From NCBI GenBank assembly GCA_001825565.1, contig MHXM01000155.1, positions 1 through 42,538 on the forward strand: a stretch of 42,538 bases of DNA, read 5' to 3'. Each line of letters starts with the position of its first letter. Positions within the stretch are counted from its first letter, which is position 1. Origin of the DNA: Desulfuromonadaceae bacterium GWC2_58_13 (lineage in GTDB: Bacteria; Desulfobacterota; Desulfuromonadia; Desulfuromonadales; Trichloromonadaceae). The notes below the pieces were generated by a model. The model had not been told where the DNA came from, did no database searches, and saw only the letters and a list, made by a program, of their open reading frames with translations. This document shows positions 9,000 to 20,001 of this stretch, piece by piece. The position numbers and the translations under genes are program-made.

Positions 9000-11414
9000 T
9001 CACAACCCGTGGGACTGTTCTGCAAGCACCGCGCCTTCGGCGGCGATTTTCCATTGGGTGTTCTTCCCTTTTTCGGCCAACTCCCGAAATAAGTTAAGTG
9101 CTTCCTCTTTTTGTCCCGACTGGAGGGCAATCTGGGCGCGGCGATAACTGGCCTGATCGGCCATGGGTTCTTCCGAATCGAGCTCCTGGTAGAGCGGCAA
9201 TGCCTGCTTCAGCTTGCCTCTTTGGAACAGGGCTTCGGCCAGATAAAAGGTGAGCTGCGGATGCTTGCGACGATCTTCCGGCTTGGACAGCGCCGGAGAG
9301 AGCACCTCTTCGACCTTGTCCAATCGGTTCAGCTCCCAGAAGACCGTGCCAGCCATCAAATCGAACGTCTGGCTCGGTTCCAGGCCGCCTGAAGTCAAAA
9401 TTTTGGCGGCACCCTCAAAATCCCTTTGCTCGAACAGGGTCCGAAATTTCAATGCCAGAACCAGAGACCGCTGAGCCCCGTTCGGGAATCGTTCAAAATA
9501 GCGATCGGCGTACTCAAGAGTGAGCCGTGACTTGCCATCCTCGTAAAGCACCTGTACCAGCGGCAGATAAAAAGGTTCTTCGCCAGGAAGCCCCTGATAG
9601 GCATCAAGCATGAAAAAGTAGACCTTGGCCGCCTTCTCCATGAGCCCCATGGTTTGAAACGCATTGCCCAGATCAACCAGAAAGTCGGTCTTGACCGACC
9701 CGCCCGCCAGAAGGTGCCGATGTTTTTCGACCAGCAGCAGCGCATTGAAATATTGTTCATTCCGGATCAGGGTCTGGATGATTTCAGGCAGAACGTCGGT
9801 CAACAACGCCTCGGCATATTCCTTGAACCGGCCATTTTGATTCTGGCTAACAAACGCTTCCAGCGCATTCATCGCCGACAGGTCCGTCGCCTGCAGCACG
9901 GTCAGCAAAACATGTTTAAAAGCAGCCTCTTCACGCAGCTCGCGGGTTCCCGCTGTGATTCCCAACTGCTGAAAAGCCAGCATCTGCATGAATCCCTTTT
10001 CACCAGGGGCCGCAATAATCTCCTGATCAAGCAGCATCAATTTCGCCCGCTGCCCACCTTCGGTTGCGGAAAAGGACTCCGCGACGTCTTTGAGCACTGC
10101 CACCGCTTCGTCCACTTGTCCGGCCCGTAGCATGCCGCGGGCATAGCCAAAGGACGCCAGTCCTTTTTCTTCATCCGACTCAACCACCTCGGCCAATTCA
10201 GCGTATCGTTTGGCCGAAGCGGAAAAGTCTTGTTGGCGGTACAACGCCTCGGCCAACTGGGACAGCGAATGAGGATACGCCCCCCAGGCTTTTACAGAGG
10301 AATCCAGCGCCTGATAAAGCTGCAGGGCTTCCGCATACTTACCGGTAGCAACCAGAACGTCGGCTTTTCGTCGATCCCGAACGGTCGCGAGTCCCTGGGG
10401 AACCACCGCACCAAGGGCAGCCAAGGCTTTTTCATGCCGCGCGGTAGCCAGGTCGACTTCCGCCTGGAGAAGATTCGCCAATTGCCGATAGTATTCAGCA
10501 TCGCCGACTTCTCCGAGCAGGCAGGAGAGCTGGTAACCTGACTCATACGGTTTACCCATGGCCGCGCAAAGGTAGCTGAGCAGGTACTGGGCTCTTGCGC
10601 GCAAAAACGATTCGGGGAAATCCTGAAAGAAGGCTTCCAGAACCGCTTCCGCGGTTCGACCGGCGCCGACCCGAATCAAAACCTCGCCGTACAGCAGGGG
10701 AAATGCTTCTCGATCCACCCCCCGAAGTTTGTCATAGGAGATTTTCTCAAACGCATCCCGGGCTTTGGACCAACTCCCCTGTTGCCACTCTTTAAGACCG
10801 GACAGCAAATTATCTCCAATCTCACCAGTGGCTATCGGATTAAAAACCAGCCGAGGCAGAGGGGGCAACGAATAGCGGACTGGAACCGGCACCTGCAAAG
10901 GCGCTTCATGGTCAAGACAAAAAGTCTGCCACTGATTGCCGAAATCTTCCCCCTTGGTAATCTTGGATACGGCTTCGGCCCCTCTGACCTGTGACGGACT
11001 TTTCAATTTTGAAGTTATCGCCGGCCTCGACGGGCCTCGACTTTTGTCCCAGGTAAGTTCAAGCACCAGACGGGGGTCCCTTGCATCAGTCAATACTTTG
11101 ACTTTCTTTGGAATCGCCCGCAACAGAAACGAAGCCATCAACATCCGTTCCTGCTGGCCAAGAAGAATTCTGACCACTTTTCCGTCTTCAGGCAGATTTT
11201 TCAGTGAACCCCCATCCGTATCACTCAAAAACAGGTCGATACGCTGCCCCGAGGGCTCCAGTCGGTAGCTGGGCTTTTCGGAAAAATGGAGGATCAATCG
11301 GGTCGCGCTAACCCCTTCTTCTTTGGTGATATCGCGCAACTCCACCTTCGCCTGAGCTTGCCCACCGGTTGCATACATGAACAAAAGGAATACTGTCGCA
11401 ATGATATACCGCAC
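9000..11414 (-). CDS. Secreted TPR-repeat protein with N-terminal AMIN-like segment, first gene of the flagellar operon
   Basis: Signal peptide MRYIIATVFLLFMYATGGQAQA; early beta-rich segment (TRLILHFSEKPSYRLEPSGQRIDLFLSD) then many TPR-like helices to the C-terminus. Confidence 0.75.
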   Translation of the reverse strand: MRYIIATVFLLFMYATGGQAQAKVELRDITKEEGVSATRLILHFSEKPSYRLEPSGQRIDLFLSDTDGGSLKNLPEDGKVVRILLGQQERMLMASFLLRAIPKKVKVLTDARDPRLVLELTWDKSRGPSRPAITSKLKSPSQVRGAEAVSKITKGEDFGNQWQTFCLDHEAPLQVPVPVRYSLPPLPRLVFNPIATGEIGDNLLSGLKEWQQGSWSKARDAFEKISYDKLRGVDREAFPLLYGEVLIRVGAGRTAEAVLEAFFQDFPESFLRARAQYLLSYLCAAMGKPYESGYQLSCLLGEVGDAEYYRQLANLLQAEVDLATARHEKALAALGAVVPQGLATVRDRRKADVLVATGKYAEALQLYQALDSSVKAWGAYPHSLSQLAEALYRQQDFSASAKRYAELAEVVESDEEKGLASFGYARGMLRAGQVDEAVAVLKDVAESFSATEGGQRAKLMLLDQEIIAAPGEKGFMQMLAFQQLGITAGTRELREEAAFKHVLLTVLQATDLSAMNALEAFVSQNQNGRFKEYAEALLTDVLPEIIQTLIRNEQYFNALLLVEKHRHLLAGGSVKTDFLVDLGNAFQTMGLMEKAAKVYFFMLDAYQGLPGEEPFYLPLVQVLYEDGKSRLTLEYADRYFERFPNGAQRSLVLALKFRTLFEQRDFEGAAKILTSGGLEPSQTFDLMAGTVFWELNRLDKVEEVLSPALSKPEDRRKHPQLTFYLAEALFQRGKLKQALPLYQELDSEEPMADQASYRRAQIALQSGQKEEALNLFRELAEKGKNTQWKIAAEGAVLAEQSHGL

Positions 11415-11765: not shown

Positions 11766-14288
11766 ATGAGCAACGATATTTCCAGCGACCAGATCGAAAT
11801 CATCTTGGAGTTTGTCCAGGAAAGTCGTGATATGATCGACCAGTTGGAACCCATCATCATCGAACTGGGACAAAGCTGCCAGAAAGGCGATTGTTGGGAT
11901 ATTCTCGGCTGCCAGAACGCCGACTGTCACCGTCAGGGTCATTCCCTTTCGCTGCCTTGCTGGCTCGACACGGGTTATATCGGCAACGGCAAACAGACCT
12001 GCCCCCACGGCAGCAGCGAACAGGACTGCAAAAAATGCGCGATTTTCCAGAAAACCAATGGCAATATCGAGACGATAAACGCCATCTTCCGACTGTTTCA
12101 TTCGATGAAAGGGAGTGCCGGTTTTCTCGACCTGGTCCATCTCGCCGCCGTGGCCCACGCGGCGGAAAGCCTGCTCGATCTGGTTCGCTCCGGTAAAATC
12201 CAGATGGATGCGTCGCACGTCGACTTGCTTTGCCAGTCCTGCGACTTTGCCAAGGAAGCCCTCGAACTGGTGGAAAGTGAATACAACGACCAAGCGACTG
12301 CCGCCATCGCCATGGATGTCACGGCCAGACTCAAACGGGCGGCCGAAGAGGCCCTCGAACGAGTCAATCAAGTCGAGCCGGTGACCGCCGCGACGGTCAC
12401 CGAATCCGAACCAGAGACTTATTCTCCCCCCCGGCAGGAACCGGAACCTGAGGATGCAGGCGCTCCAAAGGACGCTGCCATGCAGTGTTTCGAGCTGGAA
12501 ATAACACCGGAGATGGTCGAACGTTTCACTCAGGAAGCTGACGAGCTGTTACAGAGTGCTGAACAAGGCCTCCTGCAATGGACCGAGGCCAAGCCTGGTC
12601 CGGATGTCATTGCCTCCCTGTTCCGGAATATTCATAGTTTCAAGGGGAATTGCGGGTTTTTTGGTTACAGCGACCTCGAACGCCTGAGCCACCAGATGGA
12701 ATCGGTACTGGATCTGGTTAAATCCGGCAAGGAACTGGCCAATCCAAACCCCGCGGACACCCTGCTGATATGTCTTGACGTGCTCCGCGTCGCCGTTGCC
12801 GATGTCAGCGATGGCGGCAATGGCAAAATCGCCACCCTGACAACTTACCAGCAACAGCTCGATGCCCTGATGGGAGTCCAGGCCAAGGCCGGCGCCGTTA
12901 TGCCGCGGGCCGCAGTGCCTCCGGCGCCGGTGGCCCCCCCGATAGTGCCTTCCCAACCAAAACCAGCCGCCAAGGACCAGCCCGCCCCGGAACCGGTCAA
13001 AACCCAACCACCGGCGGCACCGACCAAACCGGCCGCGCCGAAACCGGCATCCGTCGCGCCGCTCGCCCCGCCAGCAGCCGCTGGGTCGGCCAAAGCCGCG
13101 ACCAAACGGCAGGACCTTCGGGTCGACCTGGATAAACTTGATCAGTTGATCAACTTGATCGGCGAAATGGTTATCGCTGAAAATATGTTGATCCATAACC
13201 CCGACATCGTCGGACTGGAACTGGAAAACTTCCACAAGGCGGGACAGCAGATGAGCAAGCTGGTGCGCGAGCTTCAGGAAATTGCCATGACCATCCGCAT
13301 GATCCCGGTTTCCGGTCTGTTCCGACGCATGATCCGACTGGTTCATGACCTTTCTCTCAAGGCCGGCAAGAAAGTCGAACTGGTTCTTTCAGGTGAAGAC
13401 ACCGAAGTCGATAAAACGGTCATTGAAACCATCACCGACCCCCTGGTTCACCTGATCCGCAACTCCCTCGACCACGGTCTGGAGCCACCGGCCGAGCGCC
13501 TGCAGGCCGGCAAACCGGAAAAAGGCGTGGTGCGCCTTTCGGCCCGCCACGAAGAAGGGCAAGTCTGGATTGCCATCGAAGATGACGGCCGCGGGCTGAA
13601 CCGGGATAAAATCCTGGCCAAAGCCATCAGCAGAGGAATGATCGAGGGGGATGGTTCGGACCTCAGCGACAAGGCGATCTACAGCCTGATTTTTCAGGCC
13701 GGGTTCTCGACCGCCGACACCATCACCGACGTCTCCGGACGGGGAGTCGGCATGGACGTGGTCAAGCAGAATATCGAAAAAATCAAGGGCAAGATCGAAG
13801 TCACCAGCAAGCCGGGCAAGGGCACTCGCATGATCCTGCGGATACCGCTCACCCTCGGGATCATCGACGGCATGATGGTCCGGGTAGGCGACACCAAGTG
13901 CATCGTTCCGACGCTGACGATCCGGGAGGCCTTCCGCCCGGTCGACGAAGCCATCACCATCACCCCCGACGGACAGGAACTGGCCCGAGTCCGGGAAAAT
14001 TTCTACCCCGTCATCCGTCTCCACGAAGTCCTGGCCAAGGAACCGCAGTCCCACGAGTTGTCCGAGGGGATTCTGATTCTGCTCGATTACCAGGACAAGG
14101 GGATCTGCCTTTTTGTCGACGAAATTCTCGGCCAGCAGCAGACCGTCATCAAAGGACTTTCCGATTATATTGGCAATGTCCGCTGGGTTTCCGGCTGCAC
14201 CATTCTTGGCGACGGGGAGGTGTGCCTGATCCTCGACGTGGGCCACCTGGTGGAGATGTTCGATATGAAGGAAGCTCTGGGTGCCTGA
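11766..14288 (+). CDS. cheA: Chemotaxis histidine kinase CheA with two HPt domains and a Cys-rich insertion in the first
   Basis: Two HPt motifs (FHSMKGSAGFL, IHSFKGNCGFF), Pro/Ala linker, dimerisation/H-ATPase (LVHLIRNSLDHGLEPPAERLQAGKP), CheW-like C-terminus. Confidence 0.96.
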   Translation: MSNDISSDQIEIILEFVQESRDMIDQLEPIIIELGQSCQKGDCWDILGCQNADCHRQGHSLSLPCWLDTGYIGNGKQTCPHGSSEQDCKKCAIFQKTNGNIETINAIFRLFHSMKGSAGFLDLVHLAAVAHAAESLLDLVRSGKIQMDASHVDLLCQSCDFAKEALELVESEYNDQATAAIAMDVTARLKRAAEEALERVNQVEPVTAATVTESEPETYSPPRQEPEPEDAGAPKDAAMQCFELEITPEMVERFTQEADELLQSAEQGLLQWTEAKPGPDVIASLFRNIHSFKGNCGFFGYSDLERLSHQMESVLDLVKSGKELANPNPADTLLICLDVLRVAVADVSDGGNGKIATLTTYQQQLDALMGVQAKAGAVMPRAAVPPAPVAPPIVPSQPKPAAKDQPAPEPVKTQPPAAPTKPAAPKPASVAPLAPPAAAGSAKAATKRQDLRVDLDKLDQLINLIGEMVIAENMLIHNPDIVGLELENFHKAGQQMSKLVRELQEIAMTIRMIPVSGLFRRMIRLVHDLSLKAGKKVELVLSGEDTEVDKTVIETITDPLVHLIRNSLDHGLEPPAERLQAGKPEKGVVRLSARHEEGQVWIAIEDDGRGLNRDKILAKAISRGMIEGDGSDLSDKAIYSLIFQAGFSTADTITDVSGRGVGMDVVKQNIEKIKGKIEVTSKPGKGTRMILRIPLTLGIIDGMMVRVGDTKCIVPTLTIREAFRPVDEAITITPDGQELARVRENFYPVIRLHEVLAKEPQSHELSEGILILLDYQDKGICLFVDEILGQQQTVIKGLSDYIGNVRWVSGCTILGDGEVCLILDVGHLVEMFDMKEALGA
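11877..12038 (+). other. Cys/Trp-rich (two-CW-like) insertion within the first HPt domain of CheA
   Basis: Residues 38-91: CQKGDCWDILGCQNADCHRQGHSLSLPCWLDTGYIGNGKQTCPHGSSEQDCKKC, 8 Cys and two CW dipeptides, between HPt helix A and the His-bearing helix. Confidence 0.85.
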
Positions 14289-14337: not shown

Positions 14338-14844
14338 ATGGCTGAAAACAAGATTTTGAACGACTTGAACACTTCGCTCGCGGGGGAAAATGAAGACACC
14401 CAGAAAGGCAAATTTCTCACCTTTCACCTGGCCAAGGAAGATTACGGCATCGAAATCCGATATGTCACCGAAATCATCGGTATTCAGAAAATCACCGAGG
14501 TTCCCGACATGCCGGCATTCGTCAAAGGGGTGATCAACCTGCGCGGCAAAGTGGTGCCGGTCATGGACGTTCGCACCCGTTTCGGCATGCCAACCAGGGA
14601 TTACGATGACCGGACCTGCATCATTGTCGTCGATGTCGACGACAAATCGGTCGGCCTGGTGGTCGACAAGGTCAACGAAGTCGCGGATATCCCCGACCAT
14701 CAGATCGAACCGCCGCCGAGAACCAATCGCGAGTCGACCCGCTACATCCAGGGCCTGGGTAAAATCGGCAATGAAGTCAAAATCCTGCTCAACGTGCAGC
14801 GGCTGCTCTTCAGCGACGAACTGACCATGCCGGGCGAGATGTAA
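14338..14844 (+). CDS. cheW: Chemotaxis coupling protein CheW
   Basis: FLTFHLAKEDYGIEIRYVTEIIGIQKITEVPDMPAFVKGVINLRGKVVPVMDVRTRFG. Confidence 0.96.
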   Translation: MAENKILNDLNTSLAGENEDTQKGKFLTFHLAKEDYGIEIRYVTEIIGIQKITEVPDMPAFVKGVINLRGKVVPVMDVRTRFGMPTRDYDDRTCIIVVDVDDKSVGLVVDKVNEVADIPDHQIEPPPRTNRESTRYIQGLGKIGNEVKILLNVQRLLFSDELTMPGEM

Positions 14845-14955
14845 CTTGCCATAAACGATAGCCCCCTCGGGACCGCAACCGCTTGCACCTGAATGTCTGC
14901 CGATGTCCGCTTTCGCCGCCGGGATCGCTTGAACGAACAACAACGGAGCCGCACA

Positions 14956-15801
14956 ATGTCCGGTTATCTGATGGATATCAGCGATCAGGAATTCAAACTG
15001 ATGCGCAACCTGATTTACCAGAGGTTCGGCATCAACCTGACCGACCAGAAAAAATCCTTGATGGTGGGACGGCTGCAAAAGATCATCCGCGCTACCGGAT
15101 ACAACTCGTTTCAGGAATACTACGAACACCTGATCGCCGACAGCAGCGAAAAAGCCCTGGGCGAACTGATTGATCGAATATCGACAAATCATACGTTTTT
15201 CAACCGGGAAAAAGAGCATTTCCGCTTTTTTGTGGAAACCGCCCTGCCCGCCATCGTCAGCCGACTGGAGCGCGACAACCGCCGGGATCTGCGCATCTGG
15301 TGCGCCGGTTGCTCGTCCGGTGAAGAGCCCTACATGCTGCTCATGCTGCTGCATGAGTTTTTCGGTCAGAACTACGGCAAATGGGATTCGGGCATTCTGG
15401 CGACCGACATTTCCCAGCGTGCACTCAGCATCGCCCGCGCTGCCAGCTATCCGCAAGAGCGGATTGCCGACGTGCCCGAGGCCCTGAGAAAAAAATATTT
15501 CCGGCGACAACCGGATGGCAGTTTTGCCGTTATTGACCAGATCAAAAACGAGGCGACCTTCCGCCGTTTCAACCTGATGAATGAACGGTTTCCTTTCAAA
15601 AAACCGTTTCATATCATTTTCTGTCGGAACGTCATGATCTATTTCGATCAGACGACCCGGGAAACCTTGGTTGGCAAATTTCATCAGTTTACCGAACCGG
15701 GTGGCTATCTGTGCATCGGCCATTCTGAGACGATTGGCCGCAGCCAGTCCCTGTACAAGTACCTGATGCCCGCAACCTACCAGCGTGAGAGCGATATATG
15801 A
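14956..15801 (+). CDS. cheR: Chemotaxis protein methyltransferase CheR
   Basis: Start trimmed to MSGYLMDISDQEF; IWCAGCSSGEEPYMLLMLL SAM-binding motif; IIFCRNVMIYFDQTTR. Confidence 0.95.
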   Translation: MSGYLMDISDQEFKLMRNLIYQRFGINLTDQKKSLMVGRLQKIIRATGYNSFQEYYEHLIADSSEKALGELIDRISTNHTFFNREKEHFRFFVETALPAIVSRLERDNRRDLRIWCAGCSSGEEPYMLLMLLHEFFGQNYGKWDSGILATDISQRALSIARAASYPQERIADVPEALRKKYFRRQPDGSFAVIDQIKNEATFRRFNLMNERFPFKKPFHIIFCRNVMIYFDQTTRETLVGKFHQFTEPGGYLCIGHSETIGRSQSLYKYLMPATYQRESDI

Positions 15802-16859
15802 ACCGAAAAATCCGTGTCCTTGTTGTTGACGACTCGGCCCTGGTGCGACAGATCCTGTCCCAGGGATTGGCCATGGACCCGGGAATCGAAGTGGTTGGCA
15901 CCGCCACCGATCCCTACTCGGCCCGGGACAGCATCGTCAAACTCAAGCCCGATGTCATGACCCTGGATGTCGAAATGCCCCGCATGGATGGCCTGGAGTT
16001 TCTGCGCAAACTCATGCCCCAGTATCCTCTCCCGGTAGTCATGGTCAGTTCGCTGACCCAGAGCGGCAAACAGATCACCCTCGACTGTCTTGAAGCAGGG
16101 GCCGTCGATTTCGTCGCCAAGCCGACTTCGAACATGGCACAGAGCCTCAGCATCATGCTGTCCGAGTTGCGAACCAAGGTCAAAATCGCTTCGACCGTCA
16201 ATGTATCGCACTGGAAAAACCGCCGGGACACTCTGCCGGGCCGAGGTGTCGCCCGGCCACCCAAGGCACTGGCGGAGTCCACCGACAAAGTCATTGCCAT
16301 TGGTGCCTCGACCGGCGGCACCGAGGCCATTAAAAAAGTGATCACCGAGTTCCCGGCCAACATGCCTGGAGTGGTCATTGTGCAGCACATGCCGGCCGGG
16401 TTCACCAAGATGTTCGCCGACCGGCTTAACCAACTCTGCTCCATGGAAGTCAAGGAAGCCGAATCGGGGGACCGGATCATGACCGGCCGAATTCTGGTCG
16501 CTCCCGGGGGGCTGCAGATGAGGGTCAAACGCTCTGGTGGTATTTACCAGGTCAGTTGCGACGATGGTGAACTGGTCAGCGGGCACCGTCCCTCGGTCGA
16601 TGTGCTCATGCAATCCGTCGCTGAACAGGCCGGTGCAAACGCGATCGGCATCATGCTGACCGGCATGGGCTCCGACGGCGCCAATGGCATGCTGGCAATG
16701 CGCAAGGCCGGAGCCCGCAATCTTGCCCAAGACGAAGCAAGCTCTGTCGTGTTCGGCATGCCCAAGGTCGCTTTTGAACGAGGTGGAGCCGAAAAGCTGC
16801 TGCCACTGCACGAAATAGCCCCGGCTGCTATCAGATTGCTTTCGGAGAAGTCCATATGA
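15798..16859 (+). CDS. cheB: Chemotaxis response regulator protein-glutamate methylesterase CheB
   Basis: Receiver VLVVDDSALVRQIL plus methylesterase IGASTGGTEAIKKVI and MLTGMGSDGANGMLAMR. Confidence 0.97.
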   Translation: MNRKIRVLVVDDSALVRQILSQGLAMDPGIEVVGTATDPYSARDSIVKLKPDVMTLDVEMPRMDGLEFLRKLMPQYPLPVVMVSSLTQSGKQITLDCLEAGAVDFVAKPTSNMAQSLSIMLSELRTKVKIASTVNVSHWKNRRDTLPGRGVARPPKALAESTDKVIAIGASTGGTEAIKKVITEFPANMPGVVIVQHMPAGFTKMFADRLNQLCSMEVKEAESGDRIMTGRILVAPGGLQMRVKRSGGIYQVSCDDGELVSGHRPSVDVLMQSVAEQAGANAIGIMLTGMGSDGANGMLAMRKAGARNLAQDEASSVVFGMPKVAFERGGAEKLLPLHEIAPAAIRLLSEKSI

Positions 16860-17344
16860 ATACCATGGTACTCGGCGTCGGCGATCTGGGAGCCTGCAAC
16901 AGCCAGGACTCGGAAATCAAAACCTATGCCCTAGGTTCCTGCGTTGCCGTCATTCTGCTCGATCCAAAGACCCGGACCGTCGGAATGGTGCATGTCGCAC
17001 TCCCCGAATCGAAGATTAATCCGGCTAAAGTCAAGGAACGGCCTGGTTATTTTGCCGACACGGGGATTCCCATACTGCTGCAGGAAATGGCCAAACTCGG
17101 TTGCCAGTCCCAAGGCAAGGGCCTGGTCGTCAAACTTGCCGGAGGGGCCGCCATCATGGATCACAACGATACGTTCAACATCGGCAAACGTAACCTGTTG
17201 GCGATAAAAAAAATCCTCTGGGGCTACAGCATGGGACCCCGCTCTGAAGATGTGGGCGGAACCTTCAGTCGCACCGTCTCCGTTTCGGTAAAAACCGGAG
17301 AAGTCATTCTGTCGTCGCCGGGACGACCCAACTGGAAGATATAG
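16856..17344 (+). CDS. cheD: Chemoreceptor glutamine deamidase CheD
   Basis: TYALGSCVAVILLDPKTRTVGMVHVALPES; VVKLAGGAAIM; GG..SRTVSVSVKTGEV. Confidence 0.94.
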   Translation: MNTMVLGVGDLGACNSQDSEIKTYALGSCVAVILLDPKTRTVGMVHVALPESKINPAKVKERPGYFADTGIPILLQEMAKLGCQSQGKGLVVKLAGGAAIMDHNDTFNIGKRNLLAIKKILWGYSMGPRSEDVGGTFSRTVSVSVKTGEVILSSPGRPNWKI

Positions 17345-17353
17345 GAGCGCACT

Positions 17354-18229
17354 ATGAGCCTGTTGAACAATCAAACCGAAATTGCTCGGGCAATCGAGGC
17401 GGCTCCGCTCCTTTCTCCGGTAGCGTCCCAGTTGCTGCAAATCTCGGCAAAAGCGGACCATGAGCTGAAAGACATCATCGACCTGGTCAAATGCGATTCG
17501 ATTCTCACCGCCCGACTGCTTAAGGTCGTTAATTCCGCGGCCATGGGCCTGCGACACCAGATCAGTTCGGTGGAACATGCGGTAAATTACCTGGGAGAAC
17601 GAATGGTGGTCAGTATCGCCGTCGCCGAATGCACCGCCGAACTTTTTTCCAAACCTCTCGATGGGTACGAGGGTGAGTCGGGGCAACTCTGGAAACACGA
17701 ACTGTTCACCGCCATCGCCGCCCGAGCCGTGGCCCGACACGCCAAGGGCGATCTGCCCCCCGACATGGCTTTTACCGCCGGACTGCTGCATGATATCGGC
17801 AAGGCGATTCTTTCCGAATTTCTGCAGGGTACCTCGCGCAGCGTTCTGGCCGACATCGTTCAGGGCAACACCGCCGATTATCTGACCGCCGAGCAAAGTC
17901 GGCTCGGTCTCGACCATTCGATAGTCGGCTTTGAGCTGGCCAAACACTGGAAGTTGCCGGAAATGCTGCAGCAAGTCATCCGTCATCACCACCACCCCGA
18001 CCAAGCCGACTCCCCCTCGCGGGTCCTGGCCTACGCCGTGCATTTGGGAGACATCCTGGCCATGATGAGTGGCAACGGAACCGGCAGCGATTCGATGCAG
18101 TATCACCTGAAGCAGGACTATACGGAGTACTTCAACATATCCAAGGATGAACTCGCCCTGCTGCTCCTTGAAAGCACTGAAGAGTTTAATAAAGTTGAAG
18201 CTTCTCTTGCCATCGCAGAGGAGAAATAA
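17354..18229 (+). CDS. HDOD-domain protein
   Basis: APLLSPVASQLLQISAKADHELKDIIDLVKCDSILTARLLKVVNSA; AFTAGLLHDIGKAIL; QVIRHHHHPDQA. Confidence 0.92.
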   Translation: MSLLNNQTEIARAIEAAPLLSPVASQLLQISAKADHELKDIIDLVKCDSILTARLLKVVNSAAMGLRHQISSVEHAVNYLGERMVVSIAVAECTAELFSKPLDGYEGESGQLWKHELFTAIAARAVARHAKGDLPPDMAFTAGLLHDIGKAILSEFLQGTSRSVLADIVQGNTADYLTAEQSRLGLDHSIVGFELAKHWKLPEMLQQVIRHHHHPDQADSPSRVLAYAVHLGDILAMMSGNGTGSDSMQYHLKQDYTEYFNISKDELALLLLESTEEFNKVEASLAIAEEK

Positions 18230-18230
18230 A

Positions 18231-18605
18231 GTGAAGCGTATCGTTATCGCGGACGACTCGGCGACTGCCAGAATGTTCATCAAACGTTGCCTGGAGATTA
18301 TCGGTTTAGGCGATGCGGTCATCATTGAGGCGGCCAATGGCAAAGAGGCCTTGGCCAGGGTCAAGGAGGGGCCAACCGATCTGGTTATCACCGACCTCAA
18401 CATGCCGGTCATGGACGGCGAAACCCTGCTCAAATGGATCCGCGCCAACCCGAAACTCAGCCTGATCCCGGTGCTGGTCATCAGCAGCGCCGGAACCCCG
18501 GCCAAAGAGGCGGAACTCCTAGAACTCGGGGCGCTCGCCATCCTCAGCAAGCCGGTGTCCCCCCCGGCGCTGATGGAAAAGCTTGGACCCCTGCTCGCTG
18601 GTTAA
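18231..18605 (+). CDS. CheY-like single-domain response regulator (GTG start)
   Basis: VKRIVIADDSATARMFIKRCLEIIG; LVITDLNMPVMDG; ILSKPVSPPAL. SD GGAGAA upstream of GTG 18231. Confidence 0.92.
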   Translation: MKRIVIADDSATARMFIKRCLEIIGLGDAVIIEAANGKEALARVKEGPTDLVITDLNMPVMDGETLLKWIRANPKLSLIPVLVISSAGTPAKEAELLELGALAILSKPVSPPALMEKLGPLLAG

Positions 18606-18631
18606 TTGCGCCAACTATAATGGGAGTCAAC

Positions 18632-19108
18632 ATGAACAGATGCGACCAGGCCATGCGCCATTCGGTGGTTGATACCTTGGAAAAAATGGTCTTCATGGAA
18701 ATAACGCCGGTGGAGGTTCGAGCCACCCCACTGGCCGCCGCTGACTGGAAGACCGTCAGTCTCCTGATTCACGACCCGGTTCAGGGTGAGGTTCGCCTGA
18801 GCATGCCCAGGAGTCTGATAAGTAAAATTACCGAGACGATGTACAATCTTTCGGCGGAGGAAATCACCGAGCAGATGCTGGACGACAATCTGGCCGAAAT
18901 CATCAACATCATTGCCGGCCGTTTCATGAACGAGATTCTGGATGACGGTCAGGCATTCCGTCTCGGCCTGCCGGAACTGGAACCTGCCGACCCCATCGAT
19001 CCGAGCATGGAAAGTCGGGAATGGACCTTTTCATCGGATGCCGACGAATTTACCGTAGTCACTATCGGCAACGACCTCTTGTGCCAATTACCGGCCCGCC
19101 ACGATTGA
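18632..19108 (+). CDS. CheX-like chemotaxis phosphatase
   Basis: CheC/CheX motif DNLAEIINIIAGRFMNEI (E-x2-N) followed by a downstream Pro; start approximate (ATG 18620 also possible). Confidence 0.75.
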   Translation: MNRCDQAMRHSVVDTLEKMVFMEITPVEVRATPLAAADWKTVSLLIHDPVQGEVRLSMPRSLISKITETMYNLSAEEITEQMLDDNLAEIINIIAGRFMNEILDDGQAFRLGLPELEPADPIDPSMESREWTFSSDADEFTVVTIGNDLLCQLPARHD

Positions 19109-19149
19109 CAACCTGAAAACCCGAAGTGGAAAAAGAAAGGAAACCGCTC

Positions 19150-19521
19150 ATGGGAAAAAAAGTACTGATCATCGACGATTCGAGCACCATGAGGAAAATC
19201 GTCACTCGCTCCTTGCGCCAGGCCGGCCTGGATTTCGACATCATTCTCGAAGCGGGCGACGGCGTGGAAGCGTTGCAGCTTCTGCAGACTGAAGCCGTCG
19301 ACATCATCCTCAGCGACATCAACATGCCGAACATGGACGGCATGGAGTTTTTACGGCAGAAAGCGGCCAACGCCGCCCTCAAAAGAATTCCCGTGGTGAT
19401 GATCACCACCGAAGCCGGGGCCGACATTCTGTCCGAAGCCAAATCCCTTGGGGCGGCCGGCAGCATTAAGAAACCATTCACTCCAGATCAGGTCAGTGAA
19501 ATCATTGGCCCGTTGCTTTAA
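19150..19521 (+). CDS. cheY: CheY-like response regulator
   Basis: MGKKVLIIDDSSTMRKIVTRSLRQAG; IILSDINMPNMDGMEFL; MITTEAG; SIKKPFTPDQV. Confidence 0.94.
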   Translation: MGKKVLIIDDSSTMRKIVTRSLRQAGLDFDIILEAGDGVEALQLLQTEAVDIILSDINMPNMDGMEFLRQKAANAALKRIPVVMITTEAGADILSEAKSLGAAGSIKKPFTPDQVSEIIGPLL

Positions 19522-19539
19522 TCCCCGAGGGAGGATCCT

Positions 19540-20001
19540 TTGAACTGGGAACAAAATATTATTGCCGCCACAACGGAAATTTTTTCTACCATGTTGATGA
19601 TGGAGGTAACTCCCGGCGCTCCTCTCCAAGAACGCAATGCCAACTACAAACAAAGCATAACCGGCATGGTCGGGATAGCGGGTCTGTTCAAGGGGATGCT
19701 TGCCATCCATGCTCCCGCCGATGTTGCCATGGCCATAACCACCAACTTCCTGGGCTTGGAGGTCGATTCCATTAACGCGGATGTCAAAGATGCTTTCGGT
19801 GAGTTGGCCAACATGCTTGGAGGCAGTATCAAGGCCAGCTTGAGCGACAACAGCAGAGACATCCAGTTGTCGATCCCCTCAGCCGTTTGCGGGGAGGAAT
19901 ACACTCTGGATTATCAACCCAGGAACCATTGTACAACGATGCCTTTCAAAAGTGCGGAGGGGATTTTTCTGGTCGAATTGCAACTAGAGCAGCAAGTATA
20001 G
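19540..20001 (+). CDS. CheX-like chemotaxis phosphatase
   Basis: DAFGELANMLGGSIKASL ... LSIPS, CheX fold signature with E-x2-N. Confidence 0.85.
   Translation: MNWEQNIIAATTEIFSTMLMMEVTPGAPLQERNANYKQSITGMVGIAGLFKGMLAIHAPADVAMAITTNFLGLEVDSINADVKDAFGELANMLGGSIKASLSDNSRDIQLSIPSAVCGEEYTLDYQPRNHCTTMPFKSAEGIFLVELQLEQQV

Follow-up and report, generated by a model that had tools for sequence, protein, structure and literature searches.

The chemotaxis kinase CheA encoded in the window, the whole 42,538-nucleotide stretch of Desulfuromonadaceae bacterium GWC2_58_13 analysed here, carries a Cys- and Trp-rich module of the two-CW type in the loop between helices A and B of its first HPt domain (HPt1). 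We regard this module as a putative metal or redox input that would tune kinase docking or phosphotransfer, a reading to which we give an even chance. CheA is normally regulated via chemoreceptors acting on the kinase core; a module with a sensory look, conserved within the phosphotransfer domain itself, would give the enzyme an additional, distinct point of input. The module class is known by name, while its embedding in a CheA HPt domain was previously unremarked in the literature searched, which yielded no account of the two-CW domain, nor of a Cys module within CheA. The CheA-embedded variant is of interest as a way to test what the module does within a pathway that is well understood.

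Pfam recognises two HPt matches, H-kinase_dim, HATPase_c, and CheW in the window protein. The dimerisation, ATPase, and CheW-like domains, together with the surrounding che operon, identify it as a CheA kinase. The insert itself, CQKGDCWDILGCQNADCHRQGHSLSLPCWLDTGYIGNGKQTCPHGSSEQDCKKC, spans residues 38-91 (11877-12038) and contains eight Cys and two CW dipeptides; on these points the ORF translation bears out the initial annotation exactly. The conserved block runs further, to residue 99, with N98-G99 invariant. The features of the gene are as follows.

11766-14288, forward strand: cheA, 840 aa, comprising HPt1 with the insert, HPt2, dimerisation, ATPase, and CheW-like domains (ORF translation, Pfam)
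11784-11876, forward strand: HPt1 helix A, residues 7-37 (AlphaFold secondary structure, alignment)
11877-12065, forward strand: two-CW-type module, residues 38-100, with invariant core C43-C91 and N98-G99 (alignment; missing as one block in 48 orthologous CheA proteins)
11892-11894, forward strand: Cys43 of the first CW (with Trp44), invariant (alignment)
11910-11912, forward strand: Cys49, invariant (alignment)
11925-11927, forward strand: Cys54, invariant (alignment)
11958-11960, forward strand: Cys65 of the second CW (with Trp66), invariant (alignment)
12000-12002, forward strand: Cys79, invariant in the CheA and MCP forms, at a different position in the HAMP-kinase form (alignments)
12027-12038, forward strand: Cys88-x2-Cys91, invariant (alignment)
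12066-12125, forward strand: HPt1 helix B, residues 101-120, with phospho-acceptor His112 (12099-12101) in FHSMKG (AlphaFold)
12231-12242, forward strand: CxxC (C156-C159) in a later HPt1 helix (149-172) (alignment, AlphaFold)
12510-12788, forward strand: HPt2, residues 249-341, with an IHSFKG phospho-acceptor site and no insert (Pfam, translation)

The position of the module in the A-B loop, as first proposed, is upheld by structure prediction. AlphaFold models built in the HPt1 context (37 sequences) have a mean pLDDT of 88.5 and place helix A at residues 7-37 and helix B at 101-120, with short helices at each CW and at DCKKC within the insert and the whole module located at one end of the HPt bundle. 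The top Foldseek matches are CheA P1 structures (PDB 2lp4, 1i5n, 3kyi, 1tqg; PF01627) aligned across the insert, with modest E values (best 3.9e-3) and a probability of 1.00. These models confirm a predicted CheA-P1 fold preserved around the insert, a helical bundle with HxxKG in helix B. The fold and the HxxKG site are thus common to the solved P1 domains and the window HPt1; the A-B loop, however, is short in the former and holds a module of about 60 residues in the latter. The phospho-acceptor HxxKG is intact, and His112 in FHSMKG is invariant in the alignment. The module had been described as lying next to this His, but the wording is loose because about 11 residues, or about 16 A along the helix, separate His112 from the insert's end. 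Modelled in isolation, the module yields a structure of low confidence (pLDDT 51.5), and a search for solved relatives of the insert gave no significant PDB sequence match. A side feature of the same domain, the C156-x2-C159 pair, is kept in almost all CheA orthologues, whether the insert is present or absent.

A lack of Cys conservation among orthologues had been set beforehand as the refuting outcome, and it did not materialise: seven of the eight are invariant across the 25 named insert-bearing relatives. Across the window and these relatives (26 insert sequences), C43, C49, C54, C65, C79, C88, C91, W44, and W66 never vary, while C38 falls outside the invariant set (the Geoalkalibacter group has Val there). 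For all pairs that allowed both rates to be computed, dN is lower than dS in the insert, yet non-synonymous change exceeds that in the rest of HPt1 in most pairs; scaffold residues are therefore held while the surface drifts. The full insert is present in 34 of 136 Desulfuromonadales genomes, and orthologous CheA proteins in which helix A leads straight into helix B, without the insert, are found in another 48. A scan of 85,462 species returned 25 clean named copies, mostly from Desulfuromonadales/Desulfuromonadaceae, Geothermobacter, and Geoalkalibacter. A few carriers bear other labels, such as Acidobacteriota (L075) and Desulfobulbaceae (L059), and these may be misassigned MAGs or transfers. 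Beyond the order, the insert occurs in one other family of the phylum (G157, G195). An oddity of a single genome is ruled out by this distribution, as are a frameshift, an assembly error, or chance, since dozens of genomes have the insert in frame and its seven Cys and two Trp never vary in the 26 sequences. One Nitrospinota-labelled MAG (L125:3850-4170) has a broken CheA start, with parts of the module in different frames and a truncated helix B.

The distribution of the module requires 3-4 changes of state on a CheA tree built without the insert, a tree with long branches and no firm root; a single origin, formulated as a one-clade hypothesis, is not rejected (p-AU 0.151). One lineage of the window's own family (L082/G003) is nested among carriers (98% SH-aLRT) and is without the insert. 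Its HPt1 is intact and reads ...ELGQSCQDASGDPETINAVFR..., with a remnant SCQ, a sequence that looks like the clean removal of the module. The best explanation is that the module was acquired by an ancestral CheA, in the A-B loop of HPt1. At least one lineage has lost the module and 48 orthologues do without it, so it is not essential to this CheA. These proteins constitute a natural matched set of CheA enzymes with the module, without it, and after its loss.

Resemblance to the two-CW family, as initially noted, is borne out by profile searches, although the match is a distant one. The NCBIfam model two_CW_domain (NF045718) covers 80 positions, and its curated cut-off is set at 35 bits. Each of the 26 CheA inserts hits this model below that threshold (best E 7.7e-6), the window insert at 18.8 bits and the G033 copy at 24.2 bits. 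The motif order CW-x4-C ... C ... CW ... C-x2-C is present in the CheA inserts, and hhalign aligns them to eight canonical two-CW proteins with a probability of 84% (E 7.4e-6). A profile of the canonical form alone scores the CheA inserts at 1.8-16.1 bits, overlapping the controls (up to 13.1). Both forms have a CW-x4-C start, a middle CW, and a C-x2-C end, and the distance from the second CW to the CxxC is 23 in each. The CheA insert differs in being shorter, without the CGREPGG/ELGxCPA stretch, in placing one Cys 14 rather than 8 residues past the second CW, and in being hosted inside an HPt domain with scores below 35 bits. On this sequence evidence, the insert is a divergent, sub-threshold member of two_CW_domain.

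Closer relatives are found in HAMP domains. Searching 396 genomes of the phylum with a CheA-insert profile brought up many other proteins, with HAMP modules at E values of about 1e-10 to 1e-11. Most of the scanned matches are sensor kinases whose Pfam HAMP match either breaks off ahead of the module, at profile position 24-31, or picks up again behind it, at 31-32, which locates the module in the connector that joins helices AS1 and AS2. When CheA inserts and HAMP-kinase modules are aligned jointly, six Cys and both Trp show no variation. A HAMP-kinase profile built without any CheA scored the real CheA inserts at 30.1-44.5 bits, against at most 10.6 for full shuffles, -0.9 for reversed sequences, and at most 30.0 (mean 11.1) for shuffles with Cys and Trp fixed. 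As the inserts lie above all controls on this profile, the relationship exceeds shared Cys content. A profile of the MCP form likewise gave 23-40 bits for the CheA inserts versus at most 21.4 for controls. As far as profile comparison can tell, the CheA insert is thereby shown to be homologous to the HAMP-connector modules of sensor kinases and chemoreceptors. At 44 bits, one HAMP-kinase form lies above the two_CW cut-off, the first letters of the query differing from L137 outside the matched stretch. The HAMP-connector copies provide a testable idea of what the orphan two-CW domain does.

The two HAMP forms differ from the CheA insert in distinct ways. The sensor kinase modules (for example L135, L137, L148) have the same first-half spacing and also lie between two signalling helices, but their host is a HAMP domain followed by PAS/HisKA instead of an HPt domain, and the seventh Cys is elsewhere. 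The chemoreceptor modules (L167:5305-7350 and others) have seven invariant Cys with spacing 6-5-9-13-9-3, compared to 6-5-11-14-9-3 in CheA. They share a pathway with CheA, and sometimes an operon, but the first Trp is replaced (CS, not CW) and the host is the receptor. In G107, for instance, an insert-free CheA is encoded in a cheA-cheW-MCP-cheR operon whose MCP has a related seven-Cys module in its HAMP domain, and similar module-bearing receptors are encoded near cheA in L108, L113, and L059. Between them, the chemoreceptor and CheA copies show that one pathway has the module in two of its proteins. Of the 34 insert carriers, 3 also have a receptor module, against 17 of the 48 genomes with insert-free CheA (Fisher p 0.008), a contrast that amounts to a trend only, because the genomes share ancestry. 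A strict either/or arrangement, with the module in CheA or in a receptor, is unsupported, and L059 has both. The initial annotation's view of an input bypassing chemoreceptors stands as one possible reading but is too strong, because chemoreceptor HAMP domains carry the same module type, in at least one genome (L059) alongside the CheA insert.

Further variants were observed among these proteins. A related module, CWEILGCTNKACPVYG...CF...C-x8-C-x2-C, in which CF replaces the second CW, is present in L143 (a dCache sensor with GGDEF), L149, and L152 (dCache). A receptor with a zinc-binding CZB domain (L170:1113-2972) also has a HAMP Cys module, and two or three receptors with such a module are found in each of G116, G063, and G068.

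In the mechanism that we favour, the seven Cys would hold a putative cytoplasmic metal centre, either an Fe-S cluster or Zn; metal binding is suggested by the seven invariant Cys with their CxxC and CW knuckles. Loading or a redox change of this centre would shift the packing of the module on the end of the helix A-helix B hairpin, and the altered packing could change the docking of HPt1 on the ATPase domain or the transfer of phosphate from His112 to CheY. Since the A-B loop caps the hairpin carrying His112, the module would be placed to affect docking or phosphotransfer; a role in signalling is suggested by its recurrence in connectors that relay helix motion. Redox or metal gating of phosphotransfer is a plausible hypothesis. 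The host bacteria are mostly anaerobic sediment dwellers, for which internal redox is a plausible cue. One cassette could then work at either of two levels of chemotaxis signalling, the receptor (via HAMP) or the kinase (via HPt1). More tentatively, the module may be a portable cytoplasmic metal- or redox-sensing cassette of helix-helix connectors in unrelated bundles (HAMP, HPt1), its input being read at the receptor in some lineages and directly at the phosphotransfer domain of the kinase in others; we consider this broader proposal possible, if somewhat doubtful.

Alternatively, the module may be a structural, non-sensing, probably Zn-bound knob that offers a docking surface for CheY/CheB, the array, or another partner. 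No P2 (CheY-binding) domain was matched by Pfam in the 840-aa window CheA, the location at one end of the HPt bundle would suit such a surface, and invariant Cys beneath a more variable surface fit a structural Zn fold. Nevertheless, module-free orthologues have a similar cheA-cheW-cheR operon, and the related modules in signal-transmitting HAMP connectors of unrelated kinases and receptors suggest a signalling input, leaving a docking knob unlikely. A metal-free thiol switch, in which Cys pairs form disulfides on oxidation and thereby stiffen or occlude HPt1, has a precedent in kinases such as SrrB (PMC8199190) and would draw on seven invariant Cys in a cytoplasmic domain and on the conserved CxxC elsewhere in HPt1. 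The number of invariant Cys is odd, however, and the CW/CxxC knuckles appear more like metal ligands, so that we find such a switch improbable. Finally, a tolerated decoration that has no regulatory role and is folded only to spare HPt1 would agree with the clean loss in L082/G003, the 48 orthologues lacking the module, and evolution faster than the flanks in most pairs, but it is the least probable reading, as both Trp and seven Cys are invariant across named carriers, members of another family of the phylum among them, and the sole degenerate copy found (L125) is in a gene that is itself broken.

For the metal centre that the favoured mechanism invokes, database searches returned Fe-S leads with E values of 0.026, 0.032, 0.057, and, in PDB, 6.6, none of them significant. 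The weak matches all lead to [4Fe-4S] proteins, namely the HPAD small subunit and HiPIP. The HPAD small subunit binds two [4Fe-4S] clusters (PMC12358834), and the insert weakly resembles these HiPIP-like subunits of glycyl radical enzymes around CP-x6-8-C-x2-C-x2-F, at a non-significant score that makes them a lead only. The HPAD small subunit family is essentially absent from the phylum sample, and HIPIP has no match in the window's own genome.

Downstream of cheA, the window operon continues with cheW, cheR, cheB, cheD, an HDOD protein, two receiver proteins, and two CheX-like proteins, and no chemoreceptor gene lies within it.

14338-14844, forward strand: cheW
14893-15801, forward strand: cheR
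15798-16859, forward strand: cheB
16856-17344, forward strand: cheD

This arrangement resembles the che cluster of two Desulfuromonas strains, which, according to its published description, contains cheC, cheD, and cheX, has no mcp, and is upstream of flagellar genes (PMC8235581); a keyword search of that description gave no mention of an insert in CheA. At the end of the window operon (18147-20001), the two receiver-domain genes alternate with the two CheX-like genes. A gene for a long TPR protein (9000-11414, reverse strand) is divergent from cheA, and a protein with a similar start adjoins cheA in L005.
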